The notes below the pieces were generated by a model. That model saw only the letters and a program-made list of their open reading frames with translations. It ran no database searches and had not been told where the DNA came from. Shown here piece by piece: positions 931-9,047 of a stretch of 10,221 bases of DNA (position 1 is the stretch's first letter; every line of letters starts with the position of its first letter). The position numbers and the translations under genes are program-made. The stretch covers positions 1 to 10,221 of the forward strand of contig MFVN01000021.1 of assembly GCA_001786095.1 (NCBI GenBank). Reading direction: 5' to 3'. This DNA is from Candidatus Nomurabacteria bacterium RIFCSPLOWO2_02_FULL_42_17 (GTDB taxonomy: Bacteria > Patescibacteriota > Minisyncoccia > Phycocordibacterales > MFVN01).

Positions 931-1764
931 GTGTCGGCGATTATATCTATTTTGTCTTTTGTTTTCGGAACCATAATCGGGAGTTTTTTGAATGTGGTGA
1001 TTCTACGCTACCACACTGGTCTTTCGGTGTGGGGAGGCGGGCTTGCCCCGTACCCAAGCGGAGCGCGTGGTGCGGGGTCGTTTTGCTTTTCCTGCGGGCA
1101 TAAGTTATCGGCGTGCGATCTGGTGCCGGTTTTTAGCTTTCTTTTTCTGGGCGGTCGGTGCCGTTATTGTAAAAGCAAAATTTCTTGGCAATATCCGATA
1201 GTTGAGATTTTAACCGGTTTAGTTTTTCTTTCTGTTGTTTTAAAATTTTCTAATTTACTTCTCTTTCCATATATTATTTATTCTGTATTTTATATTCTCG
1301 CTTTTTGTTTTTTGATTTTTATTTCAGTTTATGATTTCCACCACAAAATCATTCCCGAACGCCCCGTCTGGATTTTTGTCATTCTAGCCCTGCTCGGCAG
1401 TTTGTTTCTGCAAGTTTATGGAGCTAACGAAGCTATAAGCTATCAGCTACGAGCTCTCCTAGCCGGCCCTCTTATGGCGGCGCCCTTTTTTATACTATGG
1501 GCGGTTTCCCGCGGGCGCTGGATGGGCTTGGGCGACGCCAAGTTGGCGTTGGGTTTGGGTTTTCTTCTTGGTTCGTCCGGCGCGATCACGGCTCTGTTTC
1601 TTTCTTTCATACTAGGCGCGCTGGTTTCGGTTTTTCTGTTGATTTTCCGCGGGCGCAGGTTTACAATGAAAAGTGAAATTCCTTTCGGACCGTTTTTGGT
1701 CGTTGCTTCTTTCTTGGTTTTTATTTTTAATTTAAATTTACCAAACTTATGGCTCGTGGCGTAA
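931..1764 (+). CDS. pilD: Type IV prepilin peptidase (leader peptidase/N-methyltransferase)
   Basis: This 277-residue polytopic membrane protein cleaves prepilin leaders and N-methylates the new N-terminus. It would serve the pilins on both sides. After TM1 it carries two CxxC pairs, C52-C55 (CFSCGHK) and C77-C80 (CRYCKSKISWQYPIVE), the zinc-binding cytoplasmic loop of the GspO/PilD N-terminal domain. The two catalytic aspartates of this aspartyl protease family are visible: D135 in VYDFHHKIIP and D202 in MGLGDAKLA. About eight hydrophobic helices follow the family plan. The frame is open from a TTG at 913, but that codon is upstream of a perfect -10 box, so I use GTG 931. Residues about 36-49 (GGLAPYPSGARGAG) are an extra loop before the first CxxC, encoded by a palindrome (see repeat). 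The 3' end overlaps the next gene by 16 nt. Confidence 0.93.
   Translation: MSAIISILSFVFGTIIGSFLNVVILRYHTGLSVWGGGLAPYPSGARGAGSFCFSCGHKLSACDLVPVFSFLFLGGRCRYCKSKISWQYPIVEILTGLVFLSVVLKFSNLLLFPYIIYSVFYILAFCFLIFISVYDFHHKIIPERPVWIFVILALLGSLFLQVYGANEAISYQLRALLAGPLMAAPFFILWAVSRGRWMGLGDAKLALGLGFLLGSSGAITALFLSFILGALVSVFLLIFRGRRFTMKSEIPFGPFLVVASFLVFIFNLNLPNLWLVA
1046..1077. repeat. In-frame palindromic element in pilD
   Basis: CCCCGTACC (1046-1054) pairs with GGTGCGGGG (1069-1077), 9 bp with one G-T wobble; a small GCG/CGC stem lies inside. It encodes the extra Gly/Pro-rich loop before the first CxxC pair of PilD, a place where the family normally has a shorter connection. I infer an in-frame insertion. 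Confidence 0.55.
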
Positions 1765-2312
1765 CTATTATCGAAATTTTGGTGGTGTTGGCGATTTTTG
1801 CCATAATTTCAGGCGTGGTTTTTTTTAATTTCAGAGGTTTTAATGATGTAATGTATTTGGAGCGTTTAACGCACGACATAGCGTCTCAAATTGAAGAAGC
1901 AAAACGCGCCGCTATTTCAGGCGAGGACCCCGCTTCTTTTTCAGGTATTTGCTCGTCGACTTCTAAGCCTTGCAAACCGAGTTATGGTGTTCATTTTGAT
2001 CAATCCGCGAGTCCTAATATAATAAGTTATTTCCGCGACCAAGATAATAATTCATCTTTTGATGACCCTAATGAGCTTATCAGGGCATTTAATCCACCGA
2101 CGGGATACAGTATTGAGGATATTTGTTTTGATGGTAATGCTGTGTGTCCTAGTAATGAATTAACCGTAGTTTTCACTCGCCCTTTTCCCGATGCCGCGCT
2201 TTCGTCTCCATCCGGACCGATTTCTAATATGGCGGAAATAAAAGTTATATCACCAGACGGATATAAGCGAACAATTGCGGTTTATATTACGGGACAAGTT
2301 AGCGTACGATAA
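1749..2312 (+). CDS. Minor pilin, FimT/GspH-like
   Basis: This 187-residue class III signal protein has an exceptionally short leader, MARG, then VTIIEILVVLAIFAIISGVVFF. The predicted prepilin peptidase site is G4|V5 with Glu at +5. Position +1 is Val instead of the usual Phe. After the helix, a line of charged residues (LERLTHDIASQIEEAKRAAISG) is typical of GspH/FimT N-terminal stalks. The globular domain includes YGVHFD and EIKVISPDGYKRTIAVYITGQV, which fits the beta-rich end of FimT/GspH proteins. Four cysteines occur in two close pairs. The ATG lies inside the pilD 3' end (16-nt overlap), so translation is probably coupled to pilD. It is the first of four minor pilins in an H-J-I-K-like order. 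The subtype assignment rests on motif style and order. Confidence 0.82.
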   Translation: MARGVTIIEILVVLAIFAIISGVVFFNFRGFNDVMYLERLTHDIASQIEEAKRAAISGEDPASFSGICSSTSKPCKPSYGVHFDQSASPNIISYFRDQDNNSSFDDPNELIRAFNPPTGYSIEDICFDGNAVCPSNELTVVFTRPFPDAALSSPSGPISNMAEIKVISPDGYKRTIAVYITGQVSVR

Positions 2313-2316
2313 TAAT

Positions 2317-2883
2317 ATGAAATTAAAAACCAACCAATCCGGTTTCTCCCTCATTGAGATGATGGTCTCGGTGGCAATTTTTTCTTTGGTTATAACTATC
2401 GGCGGGGCGGCTGTTTTGAATCAAAACGCCTCTTTCAAAAAAACCCAGCACCTGCGTGAAATAAACGACAACCTTGCTTTTGTTATGGAAGAAATCTCGC
2501 GTCACTTGCGATTGGGGAGTAATTATAATTGCGGTTCATCTTTACCCATAGAGGAACCTAACGATTGCTTGTCTGACGCAGAAATTACTTTTGAGCACGT
2601 CTTTGGCAATCCCGACAATTCAAACGACCAATGGGTTTATCGAATAAATAATGGTCAAATACAAAAATCTAAAAATAGCGGTTCCAATTTTCCACTTGAT
2701 CTGACTCCGGTAGAGGTTGAAATAGACCCAGATATTTCGGGTTTTAGCGTTTTTGGTTCAGAACCGAATGACAATTTTCAGCCGCGGGTGCTTATTCGTC
2801 TGGCGGGTGTAATTAATTATAAGGGCCAACCAACACCCTTTAGTCTTCAAACTACAGTTAGCCAGCGTTCAATTTTTGAATAA
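2317..2883 (+). CDS. Minor pilin, PilW/GspJ-like
   Basis: This is a 188-residue prepilin. ATG 2317, 4 nt after the upstream stop, gives a leader MKLKTNQSG with cleavage G9|F10 and mature FSLIEMMVSVAIFSLVITIGGAAVL, with Glu at +5. An in-frame ATG at 2275 inside the upstream gene would add 14 residues and is less likely. The region after the helix (REINDNLAFVMEEISRHLRLGSNYNCG) matches the way PilW/GspJ-type minor pseudopilins continue. A cysteine pair follows (NCGSS and NDCLSD). The C-terminus RVLIRLAGVINYKG...FSLQTTVSQR is beta-strand-like and typical of minor pilins of this class. It is predicted to be a tip-complex subunit working with its three neighbours. No Shine-Dalgarno sequence is visible. 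Confidence 0.82.
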   Translation: MKLKTNQSGFSLIEMMVSVAIFSLVITIGGAAVLNQNASFKKTQHLREINDNLAFVMEEISRHLRLGSNYNCGSSLPIEEPNDCLSDAEITFEHVFGNPDNSNDQWVYRINNGQIQKSKNSGSNFPLDLTPVEVEIDPDISGFSVFGSEPNDNFQPRVLIRLAGVINYKGQPTPFSLQTTVSQRSIFE

Positions 2884-2885
2884 AT

Positions 2886-3419
2886 ATGAATAAATTTTTC
2901 AATAAAAATAACAAGGGACTTGTCCCTCCGAAGCTCCGAAAGAGCGAAGGAGGATTCACTCTTATCGAGACGCTCTTCGCGATTCTTATTTTTTCTTCAT
3001 CTCTTGCCGCCCTGTTGGTTGTTTCCGGAGGCGGAATCAACAGCACGGTTTTTGCCAAAAATCAGCTTGTTGCTTCCTTTCTGGCGCAGGAGGGCATAGA
3101 AATGGTAAGGAACATACGCGATAATAATGTTTTAAACGGGGACGGATGGGGTGGTTTTGGCGTTGATGTGATTGATTGCGTAGGTGGATGCGCGATAGAT
3201 CCTGTTGATTTAGCAATATCCACTAATTATGATCTTCAGTATGATAGTACCGGATTTTTTAGGCCCTCACTAACGGCAGGTTTATTTCAGCGAACCATCA
3301 CGGTTTATTTTCCAGGTGGTTTCTCTGAGGCCATGGTAACTTCTGAAGTTTCTTGGAACCATGGTTCAACTCCGCATAAAATTACTTTCAGAGAAAATCT
3401 TTTTGAAGTCACATGGTAA
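2886..3419 (+). CDS. Minor pilin, PilV/GspI-like, with palindrome-extended leader
   Basis: This is a 177-residue prepilin starting 2 nt after the upstream stop. Cleavage is predicted at G23|F24 (mature FTLIETLFAILIFSSSLAALLVV, Glu at +5). The segment LVASFLAQEGIEMVRNIRDNN is the hallmark I know from PilV-like proteins of candidate-phylum bacteria. The leader is unusually long at 23 residues. Its second half (GLVPPKLRKSEGG) is encoded by two consecutive hairpins (2914-2953), so the original leader was probably about ten residues (MNKFFNKNNKG-like). A close CVGGC pair could form a tight disulfide or bind metal. The role is as a minor pilin in the tip-initiation complex. It ends in TGG TAA, and that stop lies in a possible -10 element for the next gene. 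Confidence 0.85.
   Translation: MNKFFNKNNKGLVPPKLRKSEGGFTLIETLFAILIFSSSLAALLVVSGGGINSTVFAKNQLVASFLAQEGIEMVRNIRDNNVLNGDGWGGFGVDVIDCVGGCAIDPVDLAISTNYDLQYDSTGFFRPSLTAGLFQRTITVYFPGGFSEAMVTSEVSWNHGSTPHKITFRENLFEVTW
2914..2953. repeat. Double palindromic element in prepilin leader
   Basis: The first hairpin is AGGGAC-TT-GTCCCT (2914-2927, 6 bp). The second, overlapping its end, runs 2925-2953: CCTCC and GCTC pair with GAGC and GGAGG around a CGAAA loop, with a symmetric GAA/GAA internal loop. Both lie within the leader peptide codons, just before the mature pilin sequence. The pair may be an insertion, and it may also affect translation of this mRNA. Confidence 0.6.
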
Positions 3420-3430
3420 TATTAAAACTA

Positions 3431-3922
3431 ATGAAATTAACAAAGCTATCCCCCTATAGGGGATCTCCCGAAGGGAGAAAACCTAATAATTTCGGATTTA
3501 CTATCCTTTTTGCCATTCTGGCGTCCGCCGCGCTTCTCATTATGGCTCTGGGCATAACTAACATAACTTACAAAGAAATAATTCTTTCGGGTTCCGCCCG
3601 TGAGGCGGGTCATGCTCTTTTCGCGGCCGATACCGGTGTGGAGTGCGCGCTTTATTGGAGAGACACTTTTATTGATGGTTTAGGTAGTGCGCCTGAGTGT
3701 GTTTCTAGAACAGTAGATAATTTTAGCCCAACCCCTCTTCGAACGACTTTTGATTTTGAAGATGCGTCTGGGCACTGCGCGGAAGTTTCTGTTACGCCAG
3801 AGTTTTCTGTAGGTGTAGGTACTGAAACATTTATGCAAATTATTTCAACAGGATATAATGTAGATTGTTTAAGTATTTCAAATAAACGAGCCGTGTCGCG
3901 GGTCATAGAAGTTCTGCTATAA
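3431..3922 (+). CDS. Minor pilin lacking Glu+5, PilX/GspK-like
   Basis: This 163-residue protein has a leader ending NNFG and a hydrophobic helix FTILFAILASAALLIMALGI. If cleavage is at G22|F23, mature position +5 is Phe, not Glu. Loss of Glu+5 is characteristic of GspK, the tip pseudopilin of type II secretion, and is also tolerated in PilX-type proteins. The following EIILSGSAREAGHALFAADTGVECALYW matches the PilX N-terminal pattern (AF-AADTG-E-AL). Three further cysteines (PECVS, GHCAE, VDCLS) lie downstream. I choose ATG 3431. ATG 3413 overlaps the upstream gene by 7 nt, and a TGGTAATAT extended -10-like element (3414-3422) ends 8 nt before 3431. Residues about 6-17 are encoded by two hairpins. 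It completes the H-J-I-K-like minor pilin set. Confidence 0.8.
   Translation: MKLTKLSPYRGSPEGRKPNNFGFTILFAILASAALLIMALGITNITYKEIILSGSAREAGHALFAADTGVECALYWRDTFIDGLGSAPECVSRTVDNFSPTPLRTTFDFEDASGHCAEVSVTPEFSVGVGTETFMQIISTGYNVDCLSISNKRAVSRVIEVLL
3448..3478. repeat. Double palindromic element in prepilin leader
   Basis: CCCCTATAGGGG (3451-3462) is a perfect 12-nt palindrome, extended outward by AT/AT pairs around one bulged C. It is followed at once by TCTCCC-GAA-GGGAGA (3464-3478, 6-bp stem). They encode most of the leader SPYRGSPEGRK. A related ATCTCCC-nnn-GGGAGAT hairpin occurs at the gatA end (7717-7733). Confidence 0.65.
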
Positions 3923-3923
3923 T
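3915..3923 (+). promoter_or_regulatory. Extended -10 promoter for leaderless ligA, overlapping upstream stop codon
   Basis: TGCTATAAT: the TATAAT occupies 3918-3923 and contains the TAA stop (3920-3922) of the upstream pilin gene. It ends 8 nt before the ligA GTG at 3932, which puts the predicted transcription start at or next to the start codon. The same nine bases precede gatC. Confidence 0.7.
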
Positions 3924-3931
3924 GTGAATTT

Positions 3932-5968
3932 GTGAATAAATCTGTTGCTCAAAAAAGAATCTTAAAACTTCGGGCGGAGATTGAAGATCTGCGTTATCGT
4001 TATCATGTTCTGGATGATCCTAAAGTAAATGACGCGGTCACCGATTCTCTCACTTGTGAGCTTAGGGTGTTGGAAAAAGAATTTCCAGAATTACGCGATC
4101 CCCTTTCGCCGACCGAACGCGTAGGCGGAAAGCCGTTGGATAAATTTGTAAAAGTAAAACACTCTACGCCGATGCTTTCTTTAAATGATGCTTTTTCCCG
4201 CGCGGATTTGGAAGCGTGGAAAGAACGTATAAAAAAATTGAAGTCAGACTTCAAGGGCAGCCCGAAGTCTGACTTCTTGGAATACTTTTGCGAACTTAAA
4301 CTGGATGGTTTGGCTGTTTCGCTTATTTATAAAGACGGACTTTTTTTGCGCGGAGCGACGCGCGGTGATGGTTATATTGGCGAGGATGTCAGTGAAAATT
4401 TAAAAACTATTGAGACCATACCGCTTAAATTACGTACGCCGTTTCCAAAAATGATTGAAGTGCGCGGTGAGGTAATTATGGCCAAAAAGACGTTGAGGGA
4501 ATTGAATCGCGTGTATGAAAAAATTAACAAGCCTTTGTTGGCAAATACTCGTAACGCCGCGGCTGGCAGTTTACGCCAGCTTGATCCAAAACTTTCGCGT
4601 GAGCGTCATTTGGATTTTTTTGCTTATGATATTACGGAAATTTCTAAACTTGGGAGCTCAACTCCCACTTGGGAGTTGAGCTCCCAAGTGGACACCCATT
4701 CAAACAAACACGATTTTCTGCGTCAACTCGGATTTAAGGTAGATAAACATGAAGCTGTTTGTCGTAATTTAGATGAGGTTTGGAGTTTTACGGAGAAAAT
4801 AGGAAAGATGCGTCCTAATTTTCCGTACGGCACGGACGGTGTGGTTATTTCCGTGAATCAAACAGAACTTAGCAAGCGTCTCGGCTTTGTCGGCAAGGCC
4901 CCGCATTATGCCGTGGCTTTCAAATATCCGGCCGAAAAAGCAACCACTGTAATTAAAGATATTATTGTTCAGGTTGGGCGCACGGGCGTGCTGACGCCAC
5001 TGGCTGTGTTTACGCCGACTTTGGTTGCGGGTTCGACAATTTCCAAGGCCACGCTTCATAATTTTAATCAAATAGAACGGCTGGATGTGCGAATAGGAGA
5101 CACGGTTGTTATTCAAAAAGCTGGTGATGTTATCCCTGAAGTCGTGGAAGTTTTACCAAAGTTGCGTGTTGGTCATGAAAAAAAGTTTAAAATACCAACG
5201 CATTGTTCGGTGTGCGGAAGTAAAGTAGAAAAAAAGGAAATGGTTGCTTACTTTTGCGCTAATTCCAATTGTCCAGCTAAAAATATACGTGGCTTGTTGC
5301 ATTTCGCGCGAGCGTTGGAAATTGATGAGTTGGGTCCGAAAGTTTTAAATAGATTTCGTGATGAAGGACTTATTTCCGACGCGTCTGATATTTTTGCATT
5401 AAAAAAAGAAGATATTTCCGGATTGGAACGTTTCGGCGAAAAAAGCGCTGAAAATTTAATCGTTTCCATAAACGCGCGGCGGAAACCACCCCTATGGCGT
5501 TTTCTTTATGCGTTGGGGGTTTTGCATGTAGGGGAGGAAACCGCGCAAGATTTAGCCGAGCGTTTTGGAATTTTAGAAAAAATAATGACAGCGGAATTGG
5601 AGGAAATTCAAGCCGTGCCGAACATTGGGCCCATCGTGGCGCGTAGCGCCTACGAGTTTTTTCATAAAAAAGAAAATATAGATTTAATTAAAAAAATCCT
5701 GAAAACTGGAATTAAAATATTACCCGCCGAAAAACGCATAGCAGGTAAATTATTTGGTAAAACTTTTGTAATCACTGGCACATTAGAATCAATGTCGCGT
5801 GAAGAAGCCAAAGAAAAAATCCGCGCATTAAGCGGTAATGTATCCGAATCTATTTCGTCTCAAACAAATTATCTTATAACTGGTGAATCTCCGGGTTCTA
5901 AATTAGCCCGTGCCCCAAAATTAGGTGTAAAGGTTTTAACCGAAAAACAGTTTCTAAATTTGCTATAA
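3932..5968 (+). CDS. ligA: NAD+-dependent DNA ligase
   Basis: This 678-residue protein seals nicks in DNA in replication and repair, using NAD+. The domains appear in order. Domain Ia is at about 1-75 (YRYHVLDDPKVNDAVTDSL). The adenylation domain has the catalytic lysine K123 in ELKLDG, followed by RGDG, EVRGE and FKYPAEKA. The OB fold (VQVGRTGVLTPLA, HN-DQI-ERL-like) ends in KAGDVIPEV. A four-cysteine zinc finger uses C425, C428, C442 and C447. Helix-hairpin-helix repeats include LGVLHVGEETA and AVPNIGPIVA, and a BRCT domain lies at about 604-678 (GKTFVITGTLESMSREEAK). The usual DAEYD of domain Ia reads DAVTD, so Thr37 replaces a Tyr that helps bind the NMN half of NAD+. Two palindrome-encoded insertions lie at about residues 104-115 and 239-252. 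The start is GTG 3932, set by the -10 box. Confidence 0.97.
   Translation: MNKSVAQKRILKLRAEIEDLRYRYHVLDDPKVNDAVTDSLTCELRVLEKEFPELRDPLSPTERVGGKPLDKFVKVKHSTPMLSLNDAFSRADLEAWKERIKKLKSDFKGSPKSDFLEYFCELKLDGLAVSLIYKDGLFLRGATRGDGYIGEDVSENLKTIETIPLKLRTPFPKMIEVRGEVIMAKKTLRELNRVYEKINKPLLANTRNAAAGSLRQLDPKLSRERHLDFFAYDITEISKLGSSTPTWELSSQVDTHSNKHDFLRQLGFKVDKHEAVCRNLDEVWSFTEKIGKMRPNFPYGTDGVVISVNQTELSKRLGFVGKAPHYAVAFKYPAEKATTVIKDIIVQVGRTGVLTPLAVFTPTLVAGSTISKATLHNFNQIERLDVRIGDTVVIQKAGDVIPEVVEVLPKLRVGHEKKFKIPTHCSVCGSKVEKKEMVAYFCANSNCPAKNIRGLLHFARALEIDELGPKVLNRFRDEGLISDASDIFALKKEDISGLERFGEKSAENLIVSINARRKPPLWRFLYALGVLHVGEETAQDLAERFGILEKIMTAELEEIQAVPNIGPIVARSAYEFFHKKENIDLIKKILKTGIKILPAEKRIAGKLFGKTFVITGTLESMSREEAKEKIRALSGNVSESISSQTNYLITGESPGSKLARAPKLGVKVLTEKQFLNLL
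4240..4276. repeat. In-frame palindromic element in ligA (first)
   Basis: GAAGTCAGACTTC (4240-4252) is the exact reverse complement of GAAGTCTGACTTC (4264-4276), 13 bp each, with an 11-nt loop. Each arm is itself nearly palindromic, so the arms are also near-perfect direct repeats and encode the peptide KSDF twice (KSDFKGSPKSDF). It lies just before the adenylation motif, where LigA is variable, and adds about 12 residues. Confidence 0.75.
4648..4689. repeat. In-frame perfect palindromic element in ligA (second)
   Basis: A perfect 19-bp inverted repeat with a 4-nt loop: ACTTGGGAGCTCAACTCCC (4648-4666) pairs with 4671-4689 around ACTT. Its length is 42 nt, 14 codons, so it keeps the frame. 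It encodes LGSSTPTWELSSQ-like residues between the FFAYDI strand and the LRQLGFKV helix of the adenylation domain. Confidence 0.85.
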
Positions 5969-5969
5969 T
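5961..5969 (+). promoter_or_regulatory. Extended -10 promoter for leaderless gatC, overlapping ligA stop codon
   Basis: TGCTATAAT, with TATAAT at 5964-5969. The ligA stop TAA (5966-5968) is inside the box. The box ends 7 nt before the gatC ATG at 5977. It is identical to the ligA promoter nonamer and has the same relation to the preceding stop codon. Confidence 0.7.
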
Positions 5970-5976
5970 TAAACAT

Positions 5977-6273
5977 ATGGAACTTAAGGATGTAGAAAAA
6001 TTAGCCGAGTTGGCGCGGATAGAAATGTCAAGTGAAGAAAAGGCAAATATGCTCAAAGATTTTAAGTCTATTTTAGGTTATGTAGATCAGATACAATCAG
6101 TTGATTTGTCTACTAATTCCAGTGTTGAAAAATTAGACAAAATAAATATTTTTCGGGAAGATGTTTTATCAACTAGTGATTCACAAGAAGATAAAGATCC
6201 CATTAATACTTTCGTTTCTATTGCTCCACAAAAACAAGATGGCTATATAAAAGTTAAAAAAATATTATCATGA
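5977..6273 (+). CDS. gatC: Asp-tRNA(Asn)/Glu-tRNA(Gln) amidotransferase subunit C
   Basis: This 98-residue protein has the usual length of GatC, the small belt-like subunit that stabilises GatA and GatB. Recognisable family features are the N-terminal VEKLAELARIEMSSEEKANMLKDFKSILGYVDQI, matching the two-helix GatC start, the central NIFREDV, and the C-terminal QDGYIKVKKIL, which matches the conserved DGYFKVPKVL-like end. The stop overlaps the gatA start (ATGA, 6270-6273), so the two are translationally coupled. The complex amidates misacylated Glu-tRNA(Gln) and/or Asp-tRNA(Asn) in the cytoplasm. An own extended -10 box directly upstream suggests that gatC-gatA is transcribed from a leaderless promoter as well as by possible read-through from ligA. 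Confidence 0.95.
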   Translation: MELKDVEKLAELARIEMSSEEKANMLKDFKSILGYVDQIQSVDLSTNSSVEKLDKINIFREDVLSTSDSQEDKDPINTFVSIAPQKQDGYIKVKKILS

Positions 6274-7742
6274 ACCTTTCAGAACTTACAATAAAAAAAG
6301 CTATGATTGGCTTGAGTGAGAAAAAATTCTCCGCGCGCAAGTTAGCGGAGGATTGCTTGAAAAATATTGAAGAAAGAAATAAAGAGCTCAATGTTTTCTT
6401 GGAGGTTTTTGATGATGTTTTGGCGCAAGCTGACGTGGCGGATAAAATTATAAGTTCAGGAGAGGCTAATCCTCTAACCGGTATACCGTTGGCCATAAAA
6501 GATAATATTTTAATCAAGGGACGTAAATGTTCGTCTGCTTCAAAAATTTTAGAAAATTATACGGCTAGCTATGATGCCACGGTTATCAAAAAATTAAAAG
6601 ACGCCGGCGTGATTTTTATGGGTCGGACGAATATGGACGAATTCGCCATGGGTTCATCCACGGAAAGTTCGGCTTTTGGCCCAACTAAAAATCCTTTTGA
6701 TCTTTCACGCGTGCCCGGCGGTTCCTCTGGCGGTTCTGCTGTGGCGGTTGCCTCTGGTATGGCCCTTGGCGCTCTAGGTTCCGATACTGCCGGTTCCATA
6801 CGCCAACCCGCGGCTTTCTGTGGTCTAGTGGGTATGAAGCCGACTTACGGCGCGGTGTCGCGTTACGGGCTTATGGCTTTGGGTTCTTCGATTGATCAAA
6901 TTGGTCCCATTACTAAAACCGTGGAAGACGCGGAAATTATTTTCACTGCCATCGCTGGCGCGGATTCTCTGGACGCGACTTCGGTTGATGTTTCGCCGAC
7001 GGAAGAATTTTCTTGGCCCTCTCGTCCCTCGCTACGCTCGGCCCGGGCCGGCGAAAATTCTTCCGCCGGCTTCACAATCGGCGTGCCGCGCGATTTTCTT
7101 TCTGAAGGCGTGGATCCGGAAGTGCTGAAAAATTTTGAAGAGTCGCTAGAAAAACTGCGCGCGGCGGGTTGCAAAATCATAGACATTTCTCTGCCACTCG
7201 TAAAATATTCGCTGGCGGTTTATTATATTCTTATGCCGGCTGAAGCTTCTACTAATTTGGCGCGTTATGACGGGATGCGTTTTGGCTTTTCTGCCGAAGC
7301 ACCAAACCTTCTTGAAGTTTACAAGAAAACGCGTGGCGAGGGTTTTGGGCGGGAAGTGCGCCGTCGAATTATGCTAGGCACTTATGTTCTTTCTCATGGC
7401 TATTATGACGCTTATTACAACAAAGCTACGGCGGTGCGCGGACAGATAAAGCACGAGTTTGAAAAGGTTTTTGAAAAAGTCGATTTAATCGCCACACCGA
7501 CCGCACCGACTCCGGCTTTCAAATTAGGCGAAAAAATTGATCCGGTGTCTATGTACCTTTCAGATATTTTTACCGTGCCGGCCAACATTGCTGATTTGCC
7601 GGCCGTGTCCGTGCCGACCGGAAAGAACAAGGACGGTTTGCCGTTGAGTTTTCAGCTTATGGCGTCGATTGGGGGCGAAAGCGCGCTTTTTTCAACCGCG
7701 CGAATTTTAGAAAAATATCTCCCTGCGGGAGATCTCTCTTAG
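6270..7742 (+). CDS. gatA: Asp-tRNA(Asn)/Glu-tRNA(Gln) amidotransferase subunit A
   Basis: This 490-residue amidase-signature protein is the glutaminase subunit that releases ammonia for transamidation on GatB. The Ser-cisSer-Lys triad is visible: K77 in AIKDNI, S152 in PGGSSGGSA, and the nucleophile S176 in GSDTAGSIRQPA. This is the same spacing as in characterised GatA enzymes. Other conserved blocks are GRTNMDEFAMGSSTE, GLVGMKPTYGAVSRYGL, DQIGPITKTVEDA and RRIMLGTYVLS. Residues about 246-265, between the domain-linking DATSVDV stretch and IGVPRDF, are an extra low-complexity segment encoded by an imperfect palindrome. The last residues (LPAGDLS) and the stop lie in two further hairpins. 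Its start overlaps gatC by 4 nt; gatB does not follow. Confidence 0.96.
   Translation: MNLSELTIKKAMIGLSEKKFSARKLAEDCLKNIEERNKELNVFLEVFDDVLAQADVADKIISSGEANPLTGIPLAIKDNILIKGRKCSSASKILENYTASYDATVIKKLKDAGVIFMGRTNMDEFAMGSSTESSAFGPTKNPFDLSRVPGGSSGGSAVAVASGMALGALGSDTAGSIRQPAAFCGLVGMKPTYGAVSRYGLMALGSSIDQIGPITKTVEDAEIIFTAIAGADSLDATSVDVSPTEEFSWPSRPSLRSARAGENSSAGFTIGVPRDFLSEGVDPEVLKNFEESLEKLRAAGCKIIDISLPLVKYSLAVYYILMPAEASTNLARYDGMRFGFSAEAPNLLEVYKKTRGEGFGREVRRRIMLGTYVLSHGYYDAYYNKATAVRGQIKHEFEKVFEKVDLIATPTAPTPAFKLGEKIDPVSMYLSDIFTVPANIADLPAVSVPTGKNKDGLPLSFQLMASIGGESALFSTARILEKYLPAGDLS
6995..7070. repeat. In-frame palindromic element in gatA
   Basis: The 18-nt arm GCCGACGGAAGAATTTTC (6995-7012) is complementary to GAAAATTCTTCCGCCGGC (7053-7070) with one mismatch. 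A second inner stem, GGCCC/GGGCC (7015-7019 with 7045-7049), sits in the 40-nt loop. It encodes an Arg/Ser/Pro-rich stretch (residues about 243-267) that aligns with nothing I know in GatA. Confidence 0.7.
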
Positions 7743-7747
7743 AGAGA
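7717..7747. repeat. Two palindromes at the gatA stop codon
   Basis: ATCTCCC-TGC-GGGAGAT (7717-7733, 7-bp stem) abuts TCTCTC-TTA-GAGAGA (7733-7747, 6-bp stem), and the second contains the gatA stop TAG. The first resembles the TCTCCC-GAA-GGGAGA hairpin in the PilX-like leader. There is no T-tract, so it does not look like an intrinsic terminator. The 3' half lies 6 nt before the next start codon. Confidence 0.6.
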
Positions 7748-7752
7748 AATAT

Positions 7753-8484
7753 ATGGCAGATGTAAAAAAAACAGAAAGTGGTGGAGGTGGCGGGGGCGGG
7801 GGATTGTTTGCCTTTGTTGCTATTTTTTTGGCGGTGATTTTAGCGCTTTCTTTTACCGCCGGCAAGGGATCGCAACCCGACGCTATTTCAGTTACTCCCA
7901 GATCCGATTTCCTTAATCTAGAATATTTCTTTGCTAAAATATTTCAAATTTTCCAACCTTCTGTGGATGGAAGTATAGATGGTGGCATAAGTTTGGGACA
8001 AGAAATTTATTCTTGGTATGTAACCGTGCTTTCTATTTTGACGTTTGTAGCTATTGCGGTAATTATTTATTCTTTTATTCGTCTTTTGGAAATACGTCAT
8101 AAAGAAGACAAACATCTTGAAAATGAAATTAAAGAAGCCATGCTGGCCGACGACAAGAAAGAAAAGAAAAACAGCCGTTGGGATAAAATTGTGGAGCATA
8201 CGAATTCCGTGAATCCCAGTGATTGGCGTGTGGCCATAATCGAGGCCGATGCCGTATTGGATGAGCTTTTAATAAAGGCCGGTTTTATGGGGTCGGATTT
8301 GGGTGAACGTCTTAAAAATGCGCCAGCGGGAACGTTAGGGGCTGTAAACAGCGCGTGGGAGGCGCACAAGGTTCGCAATCAAATCGCCCATGGAGGATTA
8401 GATTTTAATTTAAGCCATAGAGAAACTAAGCGCGTAATCGGACTTTATGAAGAAGTTTTTCGGGAACTTAATTTTTTATCTTAG
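7753..8484 (+). CDS. Membrane protein with C-terminal HEPN-like domain
   Basis: This 243-residue protein is not one I can name. It begins with a short charged segment and eight glycines in a row (10-17). TM1 follows at about 18-35, an extracytoplasmic stretch of about 50 residues, TM2 at about 88-109 (WYVTVLSILTFVAIAVIIYSFI), a strongly charged linker (HKEDKHLENEIKEAMLADDKKEKKN) likely to be a helix or coiled coil, and a helical C-terminal domain of about 100 residues. That domain reads DWRVAIIEADAVLDELLIKAG ... VNSAWEAHKVRNQIAHGG. R208-N209-x3-H213 fits the RNxxxH signature of HEPN domains, which include many RNases; others are only binding modules. The domain should be cytoplasmic. The gene follows gatA by 10 nt. 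Start ATG 7753; a weak GAGAGA lies 6 nt upstream. Function is unproven. Confidence 0.85.
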   Translation: MADVKKTESGGGGGGGGLFAFVAIFLAVILALSFTAGKGSQPDAISVTPRSDFLNLEYFFAKIFQIFQPSVDGSIDGGISLGQEIYSWYVTVLSILTFVAIAVIIYSFIRLLEIRHKEDKHLENEIKEAMLADDKKEKKNSRWDKIVEHTNSVNPSDWRVAIIEADAVLDELLIKAGFMGSDLGERLKNAPAGTLGAVNSAWEAHKVRNQIAHGGLDFNLSHRETKRVIGLYEEVFRELNFLS

Positions 8485-8625: not shown

Positions 8626-8646
8626 TTGCAAAATTGCCGGTGTAGC

Positions 8647-8736
8647 CCCGACGCTCCGACATATGGTCGGAGGTCGGGGTCCCGACTCCCGACGCTCCGA
8701 CATATGGTCGGAGGTCGGGGTCCCGACTCCCGACGC
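8647..8736. repeat. 41-bp tandem repeat with internal palindrome
   Basis: Two perfect 41-bp units (8647-8687 and 8688-8728) are followed by eight bases of a third. Each unit contains CCCGAC and CTCCGAC pairing with GTCGGAG and GTCGGG around an ATATG loop, with one bulged G, so each can form a hairpin of about 14 bp. A linking TCCCGACT completes the unit. The array lies between tRNA-fMet and the GIY-YIG gene in otherwise gene-free sequence. A final CCCGAC-GCAAA-GTCGGG hairpin (8729-8745) overlaps its end. Confidence 0.85.
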
Positions 8737-8786
8737 AAAGTCGGGACGTCAGGATTAAATAGTAGATAAATTAAATTATTATATAA

Positions 8787-9047
8787 ATGACATCTGTTTA
8801 TATTCTCAAAACTAGTAGCGGAAAGTATTATATTGGTAGTACGATTGATTTAGATAAAAGGATCAAACATCATAAGGGCGGGCATACTCCATCAACCAAA
8901 AGATTGGGTACGGTTGATTTAGTTTTCTCTCAAGAGTATGATTCTATAAATACGGCAAGAATGATTGAAAATCGTCTGAAGAAACTGAAAAGACGAGATT
9001 GTATAGAAAAAATAATTAAAGATGGCATTATTAAAATAAAAGTTTAG
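8787..9047 (+). CDS. GIY-YIG nuclease-like small protein
   Basis: This 86-residue protein consists of a single GIY-YIG domain of the UPF0213/YhbQ size class. The motif appears as V4-Y5-I6 then Y15-I16-G17, followed by the conserved arginine R25 (DLDKRIKHHKGG) and the catalytic metal-binding glutamate E61 in ARMIENRLKKLKR. All expected active-site positions are present, so it is probably an active DNA endonuclease, but stand-alone proteins of this type have no settled cellular role. It lies among tRNA genes, directly after the 41-bp tandem repeat. Its stop codon TAG ends at the base before the next tRNA, so the two could share a transcript. The upstream region is very AT-rich and has no Shine-Dalgarno sequence. 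Start ATG 8787 is the only good choice. Confidence 0.88.
   Translation: MTSVYILKTSSGKYYIGSTIDLDKRIKHHKGGHTPSTKRLGTVDLVFSQEYDSINTARMIENRLKKLKRRDCIEKIIKDGIIKIKV

Follow-up and report, generated by a model that had tools for sequence, protein, structure and literature searches.

Palindromes inside protein genes of a Patescibacteria genome as probable REP/REPIN-like mobile elements

The 10,221-nucleotide stretch analysed here (called the window) spans contig C21 from end to end in the genome of Candidatus Nomurabacteria bacterium RIFCSPLOWO2_02_FULL_42_17 (509,331 bases, 46 contigs, 87.1% complete). It carries hairpin-forming palindromes inside several protein genes, among them ligA for the NAD-dependent DNA ligase. 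These in-gene palindromes are probably non-autonomous mobile elements of the repetitive extragenic palindrome (REP) and REP doublet forming hairpin (REPIN) kind, and at least two of them, in ligA, were probably moved in trans by REP-associated tyrosine transposases (RAYTs). The analysis found repeat families of these palindromes, transposase genes paired with palindromes, insertions relative to orthologous proteins and an identical copy of one element in an unrelated gene. Since two of the families have RAYT genes as their likely movers, we placed these with REPs and REPINs.

The ligA palindromes, their families and the RAYT genes

Contigs of this genome are designated by C numbers, genomes by G numbers and fetched loci by L numbers. 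Hairpins and copies were counted in 361,657 bp from 31 of the 46 contigs, with C3 and C44 represented by their first 20 kb. Open reading frames (ORFs) were called by a longest-ORF rule rather than with a trained gene finder, which limits the tests. The host gene ligA and its two elements are:

3932..5968 (+): ligA, NAD-dependent DNA ligase, host gene (NF005932, 787.1 bits, cut-off 369)
4240..4276 (+): ligA element, a family A doublet GAAGTCnGACTTC-N11-GAAGTCnGACTTC, coding for KSDFKGSPKSDF
4647..4691 (+): ligA element, two overlapping palindrome copies, CACTTGGGAG-n5-CTCCCAAGTG, one exact and one imperfect

The element at 4647..4691 codes for about residues 239-253 (KLGSSTPTWELSSQV), with its copies at 4647-4671 and 4666-4690. 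When folded as single-stranded DNA and compared with 200 dinucleotide shuffles, it gave the strongest signal of the seven in-gene elements of the window (z -9.45 for 4640-4699). The copy at 4666-4690 is identical over 25 bp to C32:9997-10021, which lies beside a RAYT domain (C32:10244-10465); the ORF of this RAYT holds an imperfect copy of the palindrome and a further copy follows downstream. The 20 fixed bases of the ligA palindrome were present in four of 144 genomes. The three other genomes have 11 copies outside ORFs, one of them in G047, placed at the start of a RAYT (48% identity with the one at C32:10244) that contains a further 11-bp copy of the palindrome. Of their three copies within ORFs, one is in the G019 LigA but occupies a different position of the gene.

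The genome encodes 11 RAYT-type (Y1/HUH) Y1_Tnp (PF01797) ORFs in 0.51 Mb, with open frames of 216-247 aa. This is the highest count among 146 genomes of the order, 88 of which have any. The HUH motif was found in all 11 and the Tyr-motif pattern matched in eight. Nine of the 11 have a matching palindrome on either side, no further than about 650 bp from where the domain starts, and the RAYTs of C16 and C45 on one side only. Going by their central bases, as read by eye, some pairs of these near-perfect palindromes seem to be in inverted orientation and others in direct orientation.

The doublet at 4240..4276 (fold z -6.14 for 4230-4286) defines family A, of which the 31 contigs hold nine copies (≤4 mismatches), all nine within ORFs. 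Besides LigA, the hosts scoring over their NCBIfam cut-offs include ATP synthase gamma, leucyl- and valyl-tRNA synthetase, exodeoxyribonuclease III, a Xer-type recombinase and TsaD; a contig-edge fragment is closest to isoleucyl-tRNA synthetase, below the NCBIfam cut-off. The 37-mer of the ligA element recurs identically in a P-type ATPase gene of G046, a genome of another family (copper-ATPase model, over the NCBIfam cut-off). In an alignment of nine of the ten known copies (eight of the nine plus a hairpin of C15; C32:8663 was left out), six of 13 stem pairs had changed on both sides and none of 500 shuffles scored as high, in a test that leans towards pairing because it was as palindromes that the copies had been detected. 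Further pair types were not unusual in number (113/500 shuffles).

Family A was also sought in one genome per species of bacteria and archaea, which yielded at least 114 stretches. By a hand count, 88 are titled as Patescibacteria lineages, nine as other phyla and 17 as neither. Among the matches listed, 243 of 251 13-mers were paired within 60 bp, a share biased upward because the loci were fetched with the pair pattern. The exact pair occurs in eight of 144 genomes of the order, most often in this one (six), and the pattern read backwards occurs in none of the 144. All eight genomes with the exact pair are RAYT-positive, compared with 88/146 overall (p 0.015; the two samples differ slightly). 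Five RAYTs lie in the family A loci among the matches listed, two of them (L146 and L178) with the 13-mer on both sides. The L146 RAYT falls in a clade with this genome's own RAYTs C32:5553 and C34:1834 (100/100), nearest to C34:1834 (93/87). At its apex the palindrome of C32:5553 has the related GAAGTCAAACTTC, and the family A copy at C32:6544 has this same apex. A tie between family A and one RAYT clade is thus suggestive, not settled.

Carriage of family A by viral contigs was considered and is not supported (0 stretches). The family-A-like pairs titled as other phyla are at L103, L128, L141 and L183 (Parabacteroides metagenome-assembled genome), L113 (Chloroflexota), and L102, L202, L179 and L191; some of them lie in repeat arrays, and they may be related, convergent or misbinned.

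Hairpin excess, remaining elements of the window and insertions against orthologs

With a score of at least 11 and a loop of at most 20, 93 hairpins were counted in the 31 contigs, compared with 2, 5, 3 and 4 in dinucleotide shuffles of the same sequence; when codons were shuffled within ORFs and intergenic DNA was kept unchanged, 32-37 hairpins remained. Fifty-three of the 93 lie wholly within ORFs, 29 between them and 11 at edges. As ORFs cover 91% of the sequence read, this reflects no preference of hairpins for genes. Hairpins within ORFs numbered 14.7 per 100 kb here and 4.0 in the comparison relative G087 (LigA identity 59-61%), where 400,000 bases held 16 and no RAYT was found. When only those whose arms have ≥45% GC were considered, there were 42 in 362 kb here against 5 in 400 kb of G087. 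Fully open frames were found for 19 of 46 intragenic hairpins, compared with 9.5% of random coding segments.

The remaining in-gene elements, together with an intergenic array, are:

6270..7742 (+): gatA, host gene (TIGR00132, 570.6 bits, cut-off 481.1)
6995..7070 (+): gatA element, a long hairpin with 18-bp arms, 94% complementary, 40 nt between them
7717..7747 (+): 3' end of gatA, two adjacent small hairpins supplying the last residues and the stop codon
3448..3478 (+): leader of a minor-pilin-like ORF, with the small hairpins CCCCTATAGGGG and TCTCCCgaaGGGAGA next to each other
2914..2953 (+): leader of a PilV-like minor pilin, a hairpin pair
1046..1077 (+): segment of a pilD-like ORF, an insertion relative to G087, hairpin not significant
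8646..8754 (no strand): intergenic palindrome array between a tRNA gene and an 86-aa ORF (8787-9047)

A preliminary description of this DNA had counted at least seven hairpin-forming elements in coding sequence. Of the seven listed, six fold better than shuffled sequence (z -2.37 to -9.45): besides those in ligA, these are the gatA hairpin, which codes for about residues 242-267 (z -2.94 for 6985-7080), the 3' end of gatA (z -3.62 for 7710-7755) and the two pilin leaders (z -2.81 for 3440-3486; z -2.37 for 2905-2960). The pilD place does not stand out (z -0.42 for 1030-1093; 66 of 200 shuffles fold equally well). The genome-wide hairpin criterion was reached by only three elements of the window, 4240-4276, 4648-4689 and 6995-7070. 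That every element keeps the reading frame was borne out, with all seven in open frames; the element at 7717-7747 takes in the stop codon of gatA and so forms the gene's end instead of interrupting it. The same description had treated the elements as one set while noting that their arms share no single consensus. The latter holds and the former does not, the arms differing because several families are mixed. A likeness between two loci in ATCTCCC-nnn-GGGAGA proved weak: the core TCTCCC-n3-5-GGGAGA occurs four times in the 31 contigs. The minor-pilin-like ORF with the leader element 3448..3478 had no NCBIfam match and the PilV-like ORF matched TIGR02523 under the cut-off. No NCBIfam model matched the pilD-like ORF, whose name is that of the preliminary description. 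The intergenic array beside the tRNA gene folds with z -6.70 (8640-8760).

Chance or an assembly artefact is a highly improbable source of the palindromes. Hairpins of 7 bp are common within the window and the pilD place is no better than its shuffles, but 93 hairpins against two to five in shuffles led us to drop a chance origin, the frames remain open, and the same families are present in other assemblies; for the two ligA elements the evidence is already contrary. We also considered hairpins that act as mRNA or DNA control signals and are kept by selection inside genes. Some lie at gene ends or leaders (7717-7747, 3448-3478), and for many REPs elsewhere a function at the RNA level is assumed (PMC3733652). 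Against this stand the occurrence of one family in differing reading frames, unrelated genes and insertion sites, and the Rfam result, which at gathering thresholds gave four tRNAs and nothing else in the window. A known RNA family was therefore dropped as the identity of the hairpins, and control signals are very unlikely to account for them.

For comparison with orthologs, a hairpin segment was taken as an insertion if at least half of it was gapped in G087, the sole relative used (about 60% identity) because none closer than order level was available; the genus and the family yielded this genome alone. Among 37 in-ORF hairpin segments that match G087, 36 were scorable, 13 of them being insertions, compared with 12 of 776 random segments (Fisher p 9e-13; random segments of 11 aa, hairpin segments of 8 to 26 aa). 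This alignment supports the earlier view of the elements as insertions, in part. Gaps in G087 cover 7 of 13 residues of the 4240 element and 8 of 15 of the 4648 element, 12 of 26 residues of the gatA 6995 element, narrowly below the criterion, and 13 residues at the pilD place. The G087 GatA alignment stops just before 7717-7747, and both pilin leaders are unalignable with G087. When the window LigA was aligned with 30 further LigAs (29 loci plus G019), 10 of 15 residues of the 4648 element fell in rare columns but just 2 of 13 of the 4240 element, because other LigAs hold some residues in that loop. The loop of the 4648 element carries an unrelated 20-bp palindrome in the LigA of L019 (G107), and that of the 4240 element another palindrome in L023 (G004). 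Twelve hairpins were found in the frames of other LigAs, eight of them outside rare columns; two of the other four precede the first residue of the window LigA. The LigA of PDB 2owo is shorter by 6 and 10 residues at the places of the two ligA elements, and the GatA of PDB 3h0l by 11 at the gatA element.

Palindromes could also arise on the spot and without a transposase by local templated mutation, in which replication fold-back produces an inverted copy of a nearby stretch. Such an origin would cover elements without known relatives, such as the gatA 6995 hairpin and the 29-mer of a pilin leader (2925-2953, ≤2 mismatches), present in this genome alone among 144. It cannot yield one family at many unrelated genes, nor explain why ligA shares an identical 37-mer with an ATPase gene, and we consider it unlikely.

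Mode of spread and relation to known systems

RAYTs belong to the single-strand HUH transposases and bind hairpins. If the palindromes are mobile, each RAYT would recognise its own hairpin, and several unrelated-looking families would follow from each transposase having one. A hairpin or doublet would be copied or transferred in single-stranded form and land anywhere, with many landings within genes because ORFs make up about 91% of the sequence. Insertions that survive would leave the frame intact and occupy tolerant loops, leaders or ends, adding roughly 8-15 residues. The presumed role of the RAYTs as movers and the single-stranded DNA substrate are modelled on the enzymes of E. coli, Stenotrophomonas and Marinomonas (PMC8266576), and the added residues are presumably neutral.

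Several observations weigh against mobile REP-like elements as the explanation. No movement of an element was observed. Copy numbers are low, with 1-6 copies per RAYT-linked palindrome and nine of family A in the 31 contigs, and there the R9, R16, R24 and R44 palindromes have no copy away from a RAYT. A GTAG, GTGG, GGAG or CGTC foot tag was found in none of 25 RAYT-family palindromes; two of the 25, both at C32:5553, carry GTAG inside the 5' arm. In three other genomes only 3 of 14 copies of the ligA palindrome lie in ORFs, and a RAYT next to the G019 ligA copy was dropped as support, since it belongs to another clade and is probably there by coincidence. Family A flanks RAYTs of two clades, L178 standing apart from the L146 clade. 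Among the matches listed, 85 of 121 family A pairs lie in ORFs with a minimum length of 100 aa, 27 lie between such ORFs and 9 at their edges. The share in ORFs is no higher than the ORF cover of 86%, so that many copies are in genes, yet no more than random landing would place there. Open frames did not differ between 46 intragenic and 25 other hairpins (p 0.24), which leaves a stop-codon filter, by which only stop-free families enter genes, unsupported. Twenty-three of the 36 scorable segments failed the insertion criterion, which means that some hairpins are not inserts. The elements in gatA, the pilin leaders and pilD were linked to no RAYT and are left unexplained by mobility; their origins may be different. 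The tests are constrained by the low copy numbers, by the use of one distant relative and by the simple way in which ORFs were called.

Published REPs are mostly extragenic, and their RAYT (TnpAREP) genes are flanked by the same palindrome (PMC2817692, PMC3116915). The elements described here share with REP/REPIN and RAYT systems the short palindromes, the doublets that fold into hairpins and the Y1/HUH genes flanked by the same palindrome. They differ in that the GTAG foot tag is missing, each family has few copies, half a megabase holds about ten types of palindrome, and family A is mostly intragenic. Intragenic GTAG and CGTC REPs inserted in frame have been described, with an Opitutus terrae DNA ligase among the targets, and over half of the intragenic REPs are dimers or groups (PMC3733652); in-frame insertion is common to both, whereas those REPs are mostly intergenic overall and GTAG- or CGTC-tagged. 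The same work describes TIRYTs and TIRtrons, with terminal inverted repeats containing GGGGWSAS (PMC3733652). Also reported are tnpAREP genes that contain REPs (subclass 2.4), along with atypical structures surrounding subclass 2.6 (PMC6006769). Subclass 2.4 transposase genes carry an in-frame palindrome, as here, and the internal GTAG..CTAC of the C32:5553 palindromes resembles double-foot REPs (PMC6006769). We observed in-frame palindromes within the RAYT ORFs C32:10244, C9:6116, C44:14769, L153, L178 and L221, of the flanking type except in L153, which holds a family A pair. By eye, those of C32:10244, L153, L178 and L221 precede the HUH motif and those of C9 and C44 follow the Tyr motif, while subclass 2.4 inserts generally lie between the two motifs (PMC6006769).

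The preliminary description had named the Rickettsia palindromic elements as precedent, and the analogy fits for the habit of inserting in frame into many protein genes (PMC3733652). Beyond this shared habit a true kinship is scarcely credible: the CGTC foot tag is missing from all 25 RAYT-family palindromes, and CGTC repeats are reported without association to transposase genes, which are present here (PMC3733652; compared by description). We filed the elements as a variant of REP/REPIN that works like them, and claim no membership of the GTAG or CGTC superfamilies.

In-frame REPs within genes, including a DNA ligase gene (PMC3733652), and within transposase genes (PMC6006769) are already published. 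In titles and abstract openings of the top-listed papers, with bioRxiv and most subscription papers outside the coverage, we found no publication on these elements in Patescibacteria; a search for RAYT with Parcubacteria returned nothing relevant, only an author-name match. As mobile repeats, the palindromes mean that a streamlined genome with little spacer DNA still hosts such repeats, inside its proteins, and they provide a natural record of insertion-tolerant sites in essential proteins. With about ten transposase-hairpin pairs, this one genome could serve to probe how single-strand transposases select hairpins that have no GTAG foot as guide. Odd peptide inserts in proteins of Patescibacteria (e.g. 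KSDF..KSDF) may be mobile DNA and not adaptation.

DUF559 nucleases and a second palindrome type

Patescibacteria may more widely harbour a large set of untagged REP-like systems that write peptides into essential proteins, with RAYTs and DUF559 nucleases as movers, the latter with CCCCT..AGGGG palindromes and a domain in frame inside leucyl-tRNA synthetase. We propose this broader picture tentatively and with some doubt. A literature search for DUF559 with palindromic gave nothing related by title.

A DUF559 domain lies in frame within leucyl-tRNA synthetase at L061:10021-13446 (G000 C44), L262 (G107) and L238 (G109), the synthetase being identified by NCBIfam for L061 only and by eye for L262 and L238. 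The insertion site is apparently the same in the three proteins, and the edges of the domain encode similar Pro/Gly-rich peptides. CCCC-type hairpins border the domain on both sides in L262; in L061 and L238 there is one on one side by a looser criterion and none by the 300-bp criterion used for counting. By the latter, 11 of 14 strong DUF559 loci (five on both sides) and none of 16 weak ones have CCCC-type hairpins no more than 300 bp from the domain, the criterion having been set after earlier data had been viewed. The strong loci are L233-L245 and L262, those of 21 strong matches with loci, and the weak ones L246-L261. This second palindrome type may belong to the DUF559 nuclease. At about residues 530-660 of the L061 leucyl-tRNA synthetase, a NUDIX-like stretch seemingly lies inside the protein, as judged by eye.

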